NCBI GenBank assembly: GCA_021771265.1
Contig: JAETPK010000011.1
Span: 1 to 40,844, forward strand
Source: Oscillospiraceae bacterium
GTDB taxonomy: Bacteria > Bacillota > Clostridia > Oscillospirales > Oscillospiraceae
Direction of reading: 5' to 3'
DNA length: 40,844 nucleotides
The first letter of the stretch is position 1. Each line of letters starts with the position of its first letter. The position numbers were made by a program, and so were the translations under genes. The notes under the pieces were generated by a model. It did no database searches, had not been told where the DNA came from, and saw only the letters and a program-made list of their open reading frames with translations. This document shows positions 8,030 to 25,748 of the stretch, one piece after another.

Positions 8030-8587
8030 ATGAAACAGCTTTTCAAAAAGAACTGGCTGGCGGGACTGCTGGCCCTGATACTGGCGTTGACATTGACTGC
8101 CTGCGGCGGCACCCAAACGCCCCAGTCTCCCCAGCCGGCGGAGCGGGAAACGGCACAGCCGGCGGAGCAGACCACCCCGGCGGAGGAAACGCAGGCACCG
8201 GAGGAACCGCCGGAGTCCCAGGAAGGCGGGGAAGCGGCGCTGCCGGAGGACGGCGCCTACACCACCAAGGAGGATGTGGCCCTGTACCTGCACCTGTATG
8301 GTCACCTGCCGGATAACTTCATCACGAAAAAAGAGGCGGAAAAGCTGGGGTGGCCCGGCGGCTCCCTGGAGCCCTACGCGCCGGGCAAGTGCATCGGCGG
8401 CAGCCGCTTTGGAAACTATGAGGGCCTGCTGCCGGAGGCGGAGGGCCGCGCCTATACGGAGTGTGACATCGACACGTTGGGGGCGGAGAGCCGGGGGGCC
8501 AAGCGTATCGTGTTCTCCAATGACGGCCTCATCTATTATACGGAGGACCACTACGCCTCCTTTGAACTGCTGTACGGGGAGGAATGA
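8030..8587 (+). CDS. Lipoprotein-anchored barnase-family ribonuclease
   Basis: Signal peptide plus lipobox LTAC, Pro/Glu-rich linker, then VALYLHLYGHLPDNFITKKEAEKLGW...APGKCIGGSRFGNYEGLLPEAEGRAYTECDID...SRGAKRIVFSNDGLIYYTEDHYASF, which aligns by eye with barnase (K27, E73, R83, R87, H102 equivalents present). Confidence 0.88.
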   Translation: MKQLFKKNWLAGLLALILALTLTACGGTQTPQSPQPAERETAQPAEQTTPAEETQAPEEPPESQEGGEAALPEDGAYTTKEDVALYLHLYGHLPDNFITKKEAEKLGWPGGSLEPYAPGKCIGGSRFGNYEGLLPEAEGRAYTECDIDTLGAESRGAKRIVFSNDGLIYYTEDHYASFELLYGEE

Positions 8588-8856
8588 CCATGCGCATCGC
8601 GGTATTGGACGGAGACGCCATCTCCACCCGGGAGGAGCTGCACGATGCCCTGGCCCGGGAGCTGGCGCTGCCGGCGTGGTACGGCAGGAATCTGGACGCC
8701 CTGTATGATTGCCTGACGGAGCTGGGAGAGGAGACGGTCCTCCGGGTGACAGACAGTGAGAAGCTGGCGGAAAAGCTGGGCCCCGTGGCCCGGAGCCTTT
8801 TCCAGGTGCTGAAGGACGCGGAAATGGAAAATCCGTGGCTTCGGGTGGAGAAGTGA
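8584..8856 (+). CDS. Barstar family RNase inhibitor
   Basis: ELHDALARELALPAWYGRNLDALYDCLTEL matches barstar [28 protein letters not shown]; ATGA overlap with the upstream gene. Confidence 0.92.
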   Translation: MTMRIAVLDGDAISTREELHDALARELALPAWYGRNLDALYDCLTELGEETVLRVTDSEKLAEKLGPVARSLFQVLKDAEMENPWLRVEK

Positions 8857-22475: not shown

Positions 22476-23756
22476 TTATCCCTCCATTGCGGCCAGCGCC
22501 CGCCGGCCGATGTCATGGCGCATATATTTGCCGTCAAACGTCACTGTCTCCGCGGCGGCGTAGGCGTCTTCCAGCGCCTTTTGCAGCGTGGAGGCCGTGG
22601 CGGTGACGCCCAGGACCCGGCCGCCGCTGGTGACCAGCCGGCCGTCCTCCGCCAGCTTGTCACCGGCGTGATAAATGGTGACGTTGGCGGGCAGTCTCTC
22701 AGGGAAGGTCATGACCTTGCCCTTTTCGTAGTGGCTGGGATAGCCGCCCGAAGCCAGAATGACGCAGGCGGCGGCGCCGTCGTGCCACTCCACATCCAGG
22801 TCCGCCAGCGTTTCGTTTTCCACGGCCTGCATGACCGTCAGCAGGTCAGTTTTCAGCAGCGGCAGCACCACCTGAGTCTCCGGATCGCCGAAACGGCAGT
22901 TGTACTCGATGACCTTGGGGCCGTTGGGGGTGATCATAAGGCCGAAATACAAACAGCCCTTGAAGGGGCAGCCCTCCGCCCGCATGGCGGCCAGGGTGGG
23001 CAGGAAAATGGTGTCCATGCACACCTGGGCCACCTCGGCGGTGTAGTAAGGATTGGGCGCCACAGTGCCCATGCCGCCGGTGTTGAGGCCGGTGTCGTTG
23101 TCCCCAGCCCGCTTGTGGTCCATGGAGGACACCATGGGGGCGATGGCGGTGCCGTCGGTGAAGGCCAGCACGCTGACCTCCGGGCCGGTGAGAAACTCCT
23201 CAATGACGATCTCGTTGCCAGAGTCGCCGAAGGCCTTGTCCTCCATGATGGTCTTGACGGCGGCCTCCGCCTCTGCCAGATCCTGGGGGATGAGCACACC
23301 CTTGCCCAGGGCCAGGCCGTCAGCCTTGATGACGATGGGGAAGGAGGCGCCCCGCAGGTATTCCAGCGCCTTGGCGGGGTCATCAAACACCTCGTAGGAG
23401 GCGGTGGGGATGCCGTATTTTTTCATCAGGTTCTTGGAAAAGACCTTGCTGGCCTCGATGCGGGCGGCCTTGGCGTCAGGGCCGAAGCAGGGGATGCCGG
23501 CCTCATGGAGCCGGTCCACACAGCCCAGGGCCAGGGGATCGTCCGGCGCCACCACGGCAAAGTCGATGGCGTGGGACTTGGCGAAGTCCACGATGGCGGG
23601 GATATCCTTGGCGTTGATCGACGGGACGCACACCGCGTCCCGGGCGATGCCGCCGTTGCCCGGCAGGGCGTAGATGGTCTCCACCGTGGGGTTTTCCTTT
23701 AATTTTTTAATGATAGCGTGTTCGCGGCCACCGCCGCCAACGACGAGGAGATTCAT
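22476..23756 (-). CDS. purD: Phosphoribosylamine-glycine ligase
   Basis: MNLLVVGGGGREHAI, GPDAKAARIEASKVFSKNLMKKYGIPTA, GGMGTVAPNPYYT. Confidence 0.96.
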   Translation of the reverse strand: MNLLVVGGGGREHAIIKKLKENPTVETIYALPGNGGIARDAVCVPSINAKDIPAIVDFAKSHAIDFAVVAPDDPLALGCVDRLHEAGIPCFGPDAKAARIEASKVFSKNLMKKYGIPTASYEVFDDPAKALEYLRGASFPIVIKADGLALGKGVLIPQDLAEAEAAVKTIMEDKAFGDSGNEIVIEEFLTGPEVSVLAFTDGTAIAPMVSSMDHKRAGDNDTGLNTGGMGTVAPNPYYTAEVAQVCMDTIFLPTLAAMRAEGCPFKGCLYFGLMITPNGPKVIEYNCRFGDPETQVVLPLLKTDLLTVMQAVENETLADLDVEWHDGAAACVILASGGYPSHYEKGKVMTFPERLPANVTIYHAGDKLAEDGRLVTSGGRVLGVTATASTLQKALEDAYAAAETVTFDGKYMRHDIGRRALAAMEG

Positions 23757-23777
23757 CAGATCAGAACCTTTCTGTTG

Positions 23778-23810
23778 AGATTGGAGATTGAAGAGTTAAG
23801 AGTGAAGATT
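23778..23810. repeat. Left arm of imperfect inverted repeat flanking the IVP ORF
   Basis: agattggagattgaagagttaagagtgaagatt; 27/33 matches to the reverse complement of 24165-24197. Confidence 0.85.
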
Positions 23811-23814
23811 TTTG

Positions 23815-24194
23815 TTAGCTGAAACGCTTTGTAGTTGCGGACAGAATGCGGCGAAGTTCTTCACAGTCTTGATGGAGAGATGCGTATTCTTCTGGAGTCA
23901 GATATTCTGTGGAATAGAGAAGTTCCAACCAATAAAAAGAGTCTCTGAGCACTCCTTCAGCGCAATATAAATTTTAGCGATAAAATCCTTGCGGCTGAAG
24001 CCGCAGCGGGCCTCGGCAATGTTTGCGCCGATGCTGGTACCGCTGCGAAGGACCTGTTTGGATAAAACATACTCCTGATGGTCAGAGCGAAGATGACGAC
24101 ACAATTGCACAATACGTTTTGCAAATTCCAGTGCTTTTTGATAAGCAATGCTCTCAGATGCCACAATCTTCACTCTCCAATCTCCACTCTTCAA
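23815..24194 (-). pseudogene. Four-helix-bundle protein of the 23S rRNA intervening-sequence (IVP/S23) family, apparently frameshifted in a T homopolymer
   Basis: IAYQKALEFAKRIVQLCRHLRSDHQEYVLSKQVLRSGTSIGANIAEARCGFSRKDFIAKIYIALKECSETL; after the T run the other frame continues YWLELLYSTEYLTPEEYASLHQDCEELRRILSATTKRFS*. Confidence 0.87.
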
Positions 24195-24197
24195 TCT
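24165..24197. repeat. Right arm of imperfect inverted repeat flanking the IVP ORF
   Basis: aatcttcactctccaatctccactcttcaatct; ends 3 bp before the purH stop codon. Confidence 0.85.
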
Positions 24198-24200
24198 GTA

Positions 24201-25379
24201 TCAGTGGTGGAACAGGCGCATCCCGGTGAAGCACATGGTGATGCCGTACTTGTTGGCGGTGGCGATGACATGGTCATCCCGGATGGAGCCGCCGGGCTCG
24301 GCGATGTACTGGACGCCAGATTTGCGAGCCCGCTCCACGTTGTCACCGAAGGGGAAGAAGGCGTCACTGCCCACGGTCACGCCGGACTGGGTGGCGATCC
24401 AGGCCTTCTTTTCCTCGGCGGTCAGGACTTCGGGTTTTACCTTGAAGGTATTCTGCCACACGCCGTCGGCCAGGATGTCCTCATATTCATCGGAGGTGTA
24501 GATGTCGATGGCATTGTCCCGGTCGGGGCGGCGGATGTTGTCCAGGAACTGCAGCCCTAAGACCTTGGGATGCTGGCGTAGATACCAGTTGTCCGCCTTC
24601 TGGCCCGCCAGACGGGTGCAGTGGATGCGGCTCTGCTGGCCGGCGCCCACGCCAATGGCCTGGCCATCCTTCACGTAGCACACGGAGTTGGACTGGGTGT
24701 ACTTCAAGGTAATGAGGGAGACGATCATATCGATCTTCGCCTGCTGGGGCAGGTCCTTGTTCTCCGTGACGATGTTGCCCAGCAACTCCTCGTTAATGGC
24801 GAAATTGTTGCGGCCCTGCTGGAAGGTGACGCCGAACACGTCCTTGTACTCCTGGGGGGCGGGGACGTAATCCGGGTCGATCTGGATGACATTGTAGCCG
24901 CCCTTCTTCTTGGTTTTCAAAATCTCCAGAGCCTCGTCGGTGTAGCCGGGGGCGATGACGCCGTCGGACACCTCGGCCTTCAGGTAGCTGGCGGTGGCGG
25001 CGTCGCAGACGTCGCTGAGGGCCGCCCAGTCGCCGTAGGAGCACAGGCGGTCGGCGCCCCGGGCCCGGATATAGGCGCAGGCGATGGGGGAGAGCTCTGC
25101 GCTGTCCTCCACAAAATAGATCTTTTTATCCACGTCACTGAGGGGCAGGCCCACGGCGGCACCGGCGGGGGAAACGTGCTTAAAGGAGGCGGCGGAGGGC
25201 AGACCGGTGGCGGCCTTCAGCTCCTTCACCAGCTGCCAGGAGTTGAGAGCGTCCAGAAAGTTGATGTAGCCGGGCTTGCCGTTCAGCACCGTGATAGGCA
25301 GGTCGGAGCCGTCCTTCATAAAGATGCGGGAGGGCTTTTGATTGGGGTTGCAGCCATATTTCAGTTCCAGTTCGTTCAT
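24201..25379 (-). CDS. purH: AICAR formyltransferase (PurH-like, AICARFT domain only, no IMP cyclohydrolase domain)
   Basis: LKYGCNPNQKPSRIF, SFKHVSPAGAAVG, QQSRIHCTRLAGQKAD, SDAFFPFGDNVERARKSGVQYIAEPGGSIRDD; about 393 aa. Confidence 0.92.
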   Translation of the reverse strand: MNELELKYGCNPNQKPSRIFMKDGSDLPITVLNGKPGYINFLDALNSWQLVKELKAATGLPSAASFKHVSPAGAAVGLPLSDVDKKIYFVEDSAELSPIACAYIRARGADRLCSYGDWAALSDVCDAATASYLKAEVSDGVIAPGYTDEALEILKTKKKGGYNVIQIDPDYVPAPQEYKDVFGVTFQQGRNNFAINEELLGNIVTENKDLPQQAKIDMIVSLITLKYTQSNSVCYVKDGQAIGVGAGQQSRIHCTRLAGQKADNWYLRQHPKVLGLQFLDNIRRPDRDNAIDIYTSDEYEDILADGVWQNTFKVKPEVLTAEEKKAWIATQSGVTVGSDAFFPFGDNVERARKSGVQYIAEPGGSIRDDHVIATANKYGITMCFTGMRLFHH

Positions 25380-25381
25380 GA

Positions 25382-25748
25382 AAAAGTCTCCATTCAAAAA
25401 TCCTTGATCATTTTTTCAAAAGAAAAGGGCGTTAACAGGGGCAGATTCTTCCGGGAGAGATTCAAGCCATATTCCGGCTTGCTGGTCTGTCCGGGCTGGT
25501 CATAGGAGTGATCCCGGAACAGCGGCGTCTCCTGCCGCCATGCGGCGGCAGGGATCAAATAAGGGGCCGGGAGCTTCTCTTGCTCAAACAAAAGCAGACA
25601 GAGCCACAGCTGCGGGTCGGAGATGTCAAACCGCGCTTTTTGCAGGTAAACGGATCCCGTCCCGGCCTGGATGGCCTTGACCTGGATCTTAGGCCCCGAA
25701 TTTCTGCCTGCTTTTACGGGAGAGCGCGGCCCAATCCGTGTTCGGCAT
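25382..25748 (-). pseudogene. Truncated remnant of a small PD-(D/E)XK/DUF4365-like protein gene
   Basis: ATG overlaps purN stop (TAATG): [19 protein letters not shown], then another frame: KIQVKAIQAGTGSVYLQKARFDISDPQLWLCLLLFEQEKLPAPYLIPAAAWRQETPLF...SKPEYGLNLSRKNLPLLTPFSFEKMIKDF*. Confidence 0.6.

Follow-up and report, generated by a model that had tools for sequence, protein, structure and literature searches.

The 420-bp unit that lies between purH and purD in an Oscillospiraceae bacterium is a decayed T1-type member of a class of elements in which a gene for an S23 protein stands between inverted arms made of short boxes at a 7-nt period. The heptad-armed S23 class is well supported both as an architecture and as mobile DNA, an S23-dependent mobilisation system is moderately supported, and the chemistry of transposition that we propose is weakly supported. 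We consider it probable that the unit is a mobile element without a transposase, that a pentameric S23 protein recognises its five-box arms, and that the ORF-less hairpins carrying the same arms are MITE-like derivatives of it.

S23 (or IVP) proteins have been known for decades from intervening sequences (IVSs) of rRNA without a function, and over-represented intergenic heptanucleotide repeats have been reported in bacteria without an explanation. The presence of a five-box grammar beside a pentameric protein makes both the function of S23 and the heptanucleotide excess experimentally approachable. The element would be a mobile unit without a recognisable catalytic protein that has repeatedly entered operon junctions, including that between cas2 and cas1. 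In the open-access literature we found no description of the five-box arms, of the ORF-less relatives or of their link to S23; the subscription literature was outside the scope of our search, which leaves priority uncertain.

The unit between purH and purD

The window, by which we mean the whole stretch of 40,844 nucleotides that was analysed, contains the unit in the orientation of the pur operon (Table 1). A preliminary description made from the letters alone had recognised a 420-bp unit with imperfect 33-bp inverted ends that starts 3 bp past the purH stop and ends before the purD ribosome-binding region, and our analysis agreed with it: the terminal inverted repeats (23778-23810 and 24165-24197) are 33 nt long and complementary at 27 of 33 positions (82%), and the gap from the end of the unit to the AGAAAGG ribosome-binding site is about 5 bp. 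The 3' arm is predicted to pair with the 5' arm in the pur mRNA, and the predicted RNA fold of the unit is the expected long hairpin closed by the inverted ends (z = -3.2, with none of the shuffled sequences equally stable). In the 5' arm, the heptad pattern has matches at 24165, 24172 and 24179. The unit thus has the composition by which the class is defined, an S23 gene between inverted arms with five ARTK-like boxes each at a 7-nt period. The rRNA location of known IVSs is not shared, because the unit lies between purH and purD, outside the 23S and 16S rRNA genes.

Table 1. Positions in the window of the S23 unit, its parts and the adjoining pur genes
Feature	Position	Strand	Remarks or basis
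Whole S23 unit, 420 bp	23778..24197	-	purH-purD intergenic junction of the pur operon
purH, upstream gene	24201..25397	-	stop codon (24201-24203) 3 bp from the S23 unit
purD, downstream gene	22476..23756	-	
purD ribosome-binding site AGAAAGG	23767..23773	-	close form common to all S23-bearing junctions and the G056 allele
5' arm (pur mRNA sense)	24164..24197	-	boxes ATTG/AGTG/ATTG/AGTG/ATTG starting at 24195, 24188, 24181, 24174, 24167; 7-nt period
3' arm	23778..23811	+	boxes ATTG/ATTG/AGTT/AGTG/ATTT starting at 23780, 23787, 23794, 23801, 23808
S23/IVP coding region (PF05635, TIGR02436), frameshifted	23839..24155	-	profile matches in two frames
T5 run, site of reading-frame shift	23934..23938	-	sequence and two PF05635 frames

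The encoded protein had been assigned to the family known from IVSs. This assignment was correct, since the first frame alone scored 73.4 bits against PF05635 (curated cut-off 33.8) and 80.7 against TIGR02436 (cut-off 24), but the gene is not intact. The match to PF05635 is split between two frames separated by a stop, with positions 3-72 at 23940-24152 and positions 59-105 at 23839-23979; an assembly error or programmed slippage at the T5 run may account for the shift instead of true decay. The intact frame of about 110-125 aa that is present in other members of the genus is absent from the window copy, and a profile search of the genome revealed no second S23 copy. No Pfam match other than PF05635 was found in the gene of the unit, in which S23 is the sole ORF: there is no transposase, we found no catalytic domain, and S23 itself has no recognisable nuclease. 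The gene flanked by the arms is a PF05635 gene and not a REP-flanked Y1 tyrosine transposase; likewise, no reverse transcriptase or template/variable repeats stand beside it, its neighbours being purH and purD. Elsewhere in the window, at 8584-8856 on the plus strand, a small ORF resembles, as judged by eye, a barstar-family inhibitor.

The heptad grammar of the arms

Two features were absent from the preliminary description, namely the tandem heptads in the arms and five smaller ORF-less hairpins elsewhere in the genome. The heptad pattern of the window arms has 32 matches in the genome; when reversed, it has 2. Each arm carries about five tetranucleotide boxes of the form A-R-T-K (A-R-W-K in some types), 7 nt apart, and the 3-nt spacer between them is specific to the locus and is repeated through both of its arms. 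When arms were pooled, the four box positions were A in 98%, R in 97%, T in 95% and K in 98%, followed by a free triplet. The heptad consensus is identical in the two arms at 44 of 66 loci, and its distance is 0.73 within a locus versus 3.28 between loci. Among 111 S23 loci, five boxes formed a sharp mode (89 of 220 arms, with four boxes in 21 and six in 25), while at the control periods of 5, 6, 8 and 9 five or more boxes were found in at most 8 of 220 arms. The same mode was seen in S23 units and ORF-less hairpins alike. In several members of the genus, a GGAG-like sequence lies within the 5' arm, just upstream of the S23 start.

Distribution of armed S23 units in bacteria

In a sample of public genomes that comprised 80 S23 loci, of which 79 could be tested, the terminal inverted repeats exceeded all 60 shuffles at 69 loci and period 7 was the best period at 61, in a sample that is biased because the query profile was built from heptad-bearing S23 proteins. 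At least four boxes on both sides were found at 24/43 loci in Bacillota, 21/25 in Bacteroidota, 2/3 in Pseudomonadota, 1/1 in Lentisphaerota and 1/1 in Cyanobacteriota. Among plasmid-borne S23 genes, 12 of 14 had period-7 inverted arms; such armed genes come from Nostoc, Dolichospermum, Aulosira, Euhalothece, Planktothrix, Bernardetia, Monoglobus and others. Comparable inverted ends, which the preliminary description had suggested looking for at other IVP ORFs, are therefore present at most of those examined. The upstream gene was co-oriented with the unit at 42 of 58 callable loci of the 80-locus sample, and most such units start about 20 bp or less past its stop codon.

The arms are not universal, being absent from many S23 loci of other families in the window's order. 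Three armless loci from these families (L018, L025 and L257) are flanked by GCTAAAT/TTTAGCT repeats that alternate with small, variable hairpins and may represent another style of arm. Of 149 relatives searched for one further heptad pattern, just four contained it, all of them S23 carriers and each with few copies; outside the genus, matching patterns were rare.

Several plasmid copies have neighbours of separate interest. On Nostoc and Anabaena plasmids (L451 and L453), the gene for the four-helix-bundle S23 protein lies between cas2 and cas1, on the strand opposite to both, and the Nostoc copy has period-7 inverted arms. S23 units also lie in defence clusters, between hsdS and hsdR on a Monoglobus plasmid (L462) and between DISARM drmD and an MmeI-like gene on a Planktothrix plasmid (L459).

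Exchange of units at the purH-purD junction

The purH-purD junction holds an S23 unit in 10 of the 11 genus genomes with a clear unit; G063 has a heptad-ended S23 unit at another locus. In G070, the contig ends before purD, and G041 shows no more of a unit than its 3' end. At the start of the G041 contig (L050), upstream of purD, this T1 unit 3' end is present twice in tandem, either as a duplication or as an assembly artefact. In three further genomes (G082, G051 and G047; loci L057, L069 and L100), what stands at the junction is another insert, about 415 bp long, that has a small ORF of its own beginning close to the purH stop.

Relatives that lack the unit do exist, as the preliminary description had anticipated. 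In the sister species G056, the purH stop codon is followed directly by the same purD leader, GAAAGGCTGTGACAACATG, and the unit is absent from the orthologous site in G056 and in many other members of the genus. The allele of G056 may be the ancestral state or the result of a loss. No cleanly defined target duplication, for which such a comparison had been suggested, was found: none is evident between the window junction and G056, nor could one be defined at the ORF-less hairpins, where the flanks are too divergent between species.

The units of the genus have four end types, T1 (AGAGTGR), T2 (AATTAGG), T3 (AGATAGG) and T4 (AGATAAR), each of which corresponds to one clade in the S23 protein tree. 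In this tree the S23 proteins of the genus form one branch. In the purH tree, the S23 carriers are spread over several distant clades, and the two phylogenies conflict: G058 (T1) is nested with G017 and G045 (T2), and G024 (T2) with G012 and G070 (T4). When the S23 genes of G058, G017 and G045 were forced together, the topology was rejected with both DNA (p-AU 0.0026) and protein (0.012); forcing those of G024, G012 and G070 together was rejected with DNA (0.013) and not with protein (0.08). Conversely, T1 and T2 as clades were rejected by purH (p 1e-58 and 6e-11, respectively). G058 shares an identical purD leader with G017 and G045, though its unit has been swapped in type. The tree conflict and the identical adjoining leader indicate that the S23 protein and its ends move together and are exchanged near-exactly at the unit edges.

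An alternative explanation is that the purH-purD unit is now immobile, an old allele of the genus whose spread is confined to homologous recombination between purH and purD, with the hairpin kept for operon processing or mRNA stability. The occupation of one junction in 10 of 11 genus copies, the single branch of the genus S23 clade and the ample homology of the purH and purD flanks all agree with this scenario. However, G058 has a unit that differs in type and clade from those of its purH sisters, yet it matches the sisters exactly in the purD leader 0-20 bp away, and recombination would need to have its crossovers exactly at the unit edges. The heptad-ended unit at another locus in G063 and the like arms around S23 in many other gene contexts also argue against it, and we regard an old recombining allele as improbable. 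The reading of the unit as a mobile, IVS-like element outside rRNA is supported by the G056 allele, by the inverted ends at most other IVP ORFs examined and by the tree conflict. The accompanying idea, that the unit moves between transcribed intergenic sites, holds as far as movement is concerned; the sites are not random, purH-purD being a recurrent target of the S23-bearing unit in the genus.

ORF-less hairpins and their co-occurrence with S23

Hairpins of 54-128 bp that have the same arms and no ORF are abundant in the S23-carrying genomes of the genus and almost absent elsewhere in it. In G000, the genome that contains the window, six inverted pairs account for all matches to the T1 pattern apart from a few with two mismatches; these pairs are the S23 unit and five ORF-less intergenic hairpins of about 66-118 bp, at sites that include gyrB-gyrA, ruvC-ruvA and tyrS-ABC-F. 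The second type (AATTAGG, T2) is found at about fourteen further sites in G000, with the qualification that the T2 pattern also picks up some T1 arrays in another register. Some hairpins are compact (54-90 bp); others have a conserved core, composed of two GC-rich stem-loops, that is shared between hairpins with T1 arms and hairpins with T2 arms. In the core and arms, pairing has been kept through compensatory double changes at 10 of 31 pairs. No known RNA family was recognised in the hairpins, the sole match being a T-box that scored below the gathering threshold and lay outside the hairpin.

Orthologous junctions were found with and without hairpins. At gyrB-gyrA, ruvC-ruvA, aconitase-isocitrate dehydrogenase and tyrS-ABC-F, the hairpin is missing in several relatives, and two of these junctions contain a hairpin of another type, ruvC-ruvA in G061 and tyrS-ABC-F in G049. 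These absences and the presence of other types at the same junctions point to repeated independent arrivals.

Some single hairpins are of note in their own right. G045 contains a hybrid hairpin (L159, 1406-1533) whose intact core stands between one T1 arm and one T2 arm, which may be the result of recombination or of nested insertion. At L214 and L207, a T2 hairpin has one arm of about nine heptads and another of the usual number, followed by T4-type heptads, which suggests that an array can expand in one arm alone and come to lie against arrays of other types. An AATTAGG hairpin in G000 (C145:3679; L238 near 1501) apparently provides the TAG stop codon of the upstream gene.

To relate arrays to S23, we counted the four searched array types over 86 genus genomes. 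Matches were present in all 11 carriers (12 to 289 each), and most other genus genomes had almost none. Heptad-rich genomes, with 10 or more matches, comprised 11/11 carriers versus 4/74 others (Fisher 6e-11); there were only 5 phylogenetically independent contrasts, of which 3-4 agreed and none disagreed, a result that is not significant alone. Arrays were also present without a detected S23 gene in G002, G023, G048 and G056; the G002 assembly is 56% complete, and the other three have S23 carriers as sisters. A further type, AATKGAY, is present in the carriers G012 and G070 and is also abundant in G030 (84% complete) and less so in G061, in neither of which an S23 was detected; with this type counted, the comparison becomes 11/11 carriers versus 6/74 others. 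The strict claim that there are no arrays without S23 was accordingly rejected in a falsification test, through G030, G061 and a few others. A strict match of hairpin type to the type of the resident S23 was rejected as well: it is a tendency only, with mismatches in G000 and G070.

These counts bear on the hypothesis that the heptad hairpins are MITEs or slippage repeats that owe their movement to replication errors or to some unrelated transposase, and that S23 is a passenger caught between two such hairpins. Slippage requires no transposase, the ORF-less hairpins far outnumber the S23 genes, and some array-rich genomes have no detected S23. Against this, matching five-box arms with different spacers at S23 loci in several phyla would not be expected of a passenger, the four searched array types are almost absent from most S23-less genomes of the genus, and the end type tracks the S23 clade. 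We therefore give a passenger role for S23 only a slim chance.

The unit might also be a post-transcriptional regulatory cassette, in which S23 binds RNA and controls its own hairpin (autoregulation) as well as dispersed ones through which operon expression is tuned, and movement is incidental. The placement described above, with the upstream gene co-oriented at 42/58 loci and most units within about 20 bp of its stop codon, would suit such a cassette, as would the GGAG-like sequence near the S23 start in some 5' arms and the conserved structure of the hairpin core. However, the distribution is patchy, types have been replaced at one junction and hairpins are missing in close relatives, which together suggest little conserved regulatory function; in addition, the protein has been lost in the window copy. 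Primary regulation is rather unlikely, though it deserves more weight than the old-allele and passenger explanations.

A possible mechanism

The reading that we prefer remains that of an S23-dependent mobile element. A structure search returned two S23 structures, 2gsc and 2rld, with five chains each, and the Xanthomonas S23 protein Xcc0516 has been described as a homopentameric toroid (PMC4990558). The number of boxes in an arm, five, equals the number of subunits in a ring, which suggests that a ring-shaped pentameric S23 would bind one arm with approximately one box for each subunit. The arms would fold the transcript into a hairpin, and their recognition may allow the unit to be copied into transcribed intergenic junctions just past stop codons; at purH-purD, the junction has been occupied repeatedly by related units. 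ORF-less derivatives with the same arms would be mobilised by S23 in trans.

The sense polarity of the boxes, the hairpin and the placement after co-oriented stop codons favour recognition at the RNA level, though selection against insertion elsewhere could also cause this placement. Our leading guess is that the DNA copy would be made via an RNA intermediate and a resident reverse transcriptase, a guess encouraged by the reported homology with Avd (PMC10053308). In its widest form, the proposal would be that S23 ring pentamers read a five-box 7-nt code on RNA or DNA and mobilise transposase-less elements bacteria-wide, and that these elements, which would include the 23S rRNA IVSs and the ORF-less hairpins, are the source of the intergenic heptanucleotide excess; we offer this generalisation tentatively, as somewhat more doubtful than not.

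Comparison with known systems

The IVSs of 23S rRNA in Coxiella and Leptospira resemble the window unit in protein family, in length (about 420-440 bp) and in complementary ends that form a long stem, and they share with the S23 units analysed here a sporadic distribution and the reuse of the same insertion sites. Unlike them, the window unit occupies an mRNA intergenic junction and has dispersed ORF-less relatives, and neither the five-box arm grammar nor its breadth is described for 23S rRNA IVSs in the open-access literature that we found. Upstream of its ORF, the IVS of Coxiella carries GACAGAT heptamers in varying copy number (PMC4990558), which can be read as AGAT-GAC boxes at 7-nt spacing and fit the arm grammar. 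REP/REPIN sequences and their RAYTs (PMC2817692, PMC3116915) likewise combine dispersed short intergenic hairpins with a single-copy gene flanked by the same repeats; however, RAYTs are tyrosine transposases whereas S23 has no recognisable nuclease, and REPs are tetranucleotide-tagged hairpins whereas the arms described here are tandem heptads. Avd (4DWL), the accessory protein of the diversity-generating retroelements, and the PF05635 structure 2GSC have been reported to be homologous (PMC10053308). Unlike those retroelements, the window unit has neither template/variable repeats nor a reverse transcriptase.

The trp RNA-binding attenuation protein (TRAP) is a ring that binds regularly spaced short repeats, approximately one per subunit. 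It serves as a working analogy only for the putative binding by S23, as its fold is unrelated and its repeat and spacing are different.

Tandem intergenic repeats with a 7-nt unit have been described from Xanthomonas (GGGAATC) and Nostoc (GGGGATT; both PMC4692102) and from Beggiatoaceae (TAACTGA; PMC4679880). Many of the Xanthomonas sites form convergent inverted pairs and lie nearer the 5' neighbouring ORF (PMC4692102). Neither report names a protein or a mobile element with these repeats. When rotated, the Nostoc repeat reads ATTG-GGG and the Beggiatoaceae repeat, in reverse complement, AGTT-ATC, both of which fit the grammar, whereas the Xanthomonas repeat reads AATC-GGG and departs from K at the fourth box position. 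From their sequences, we infer that the heptanucleotide repeats of these three groups may be linked to S23.
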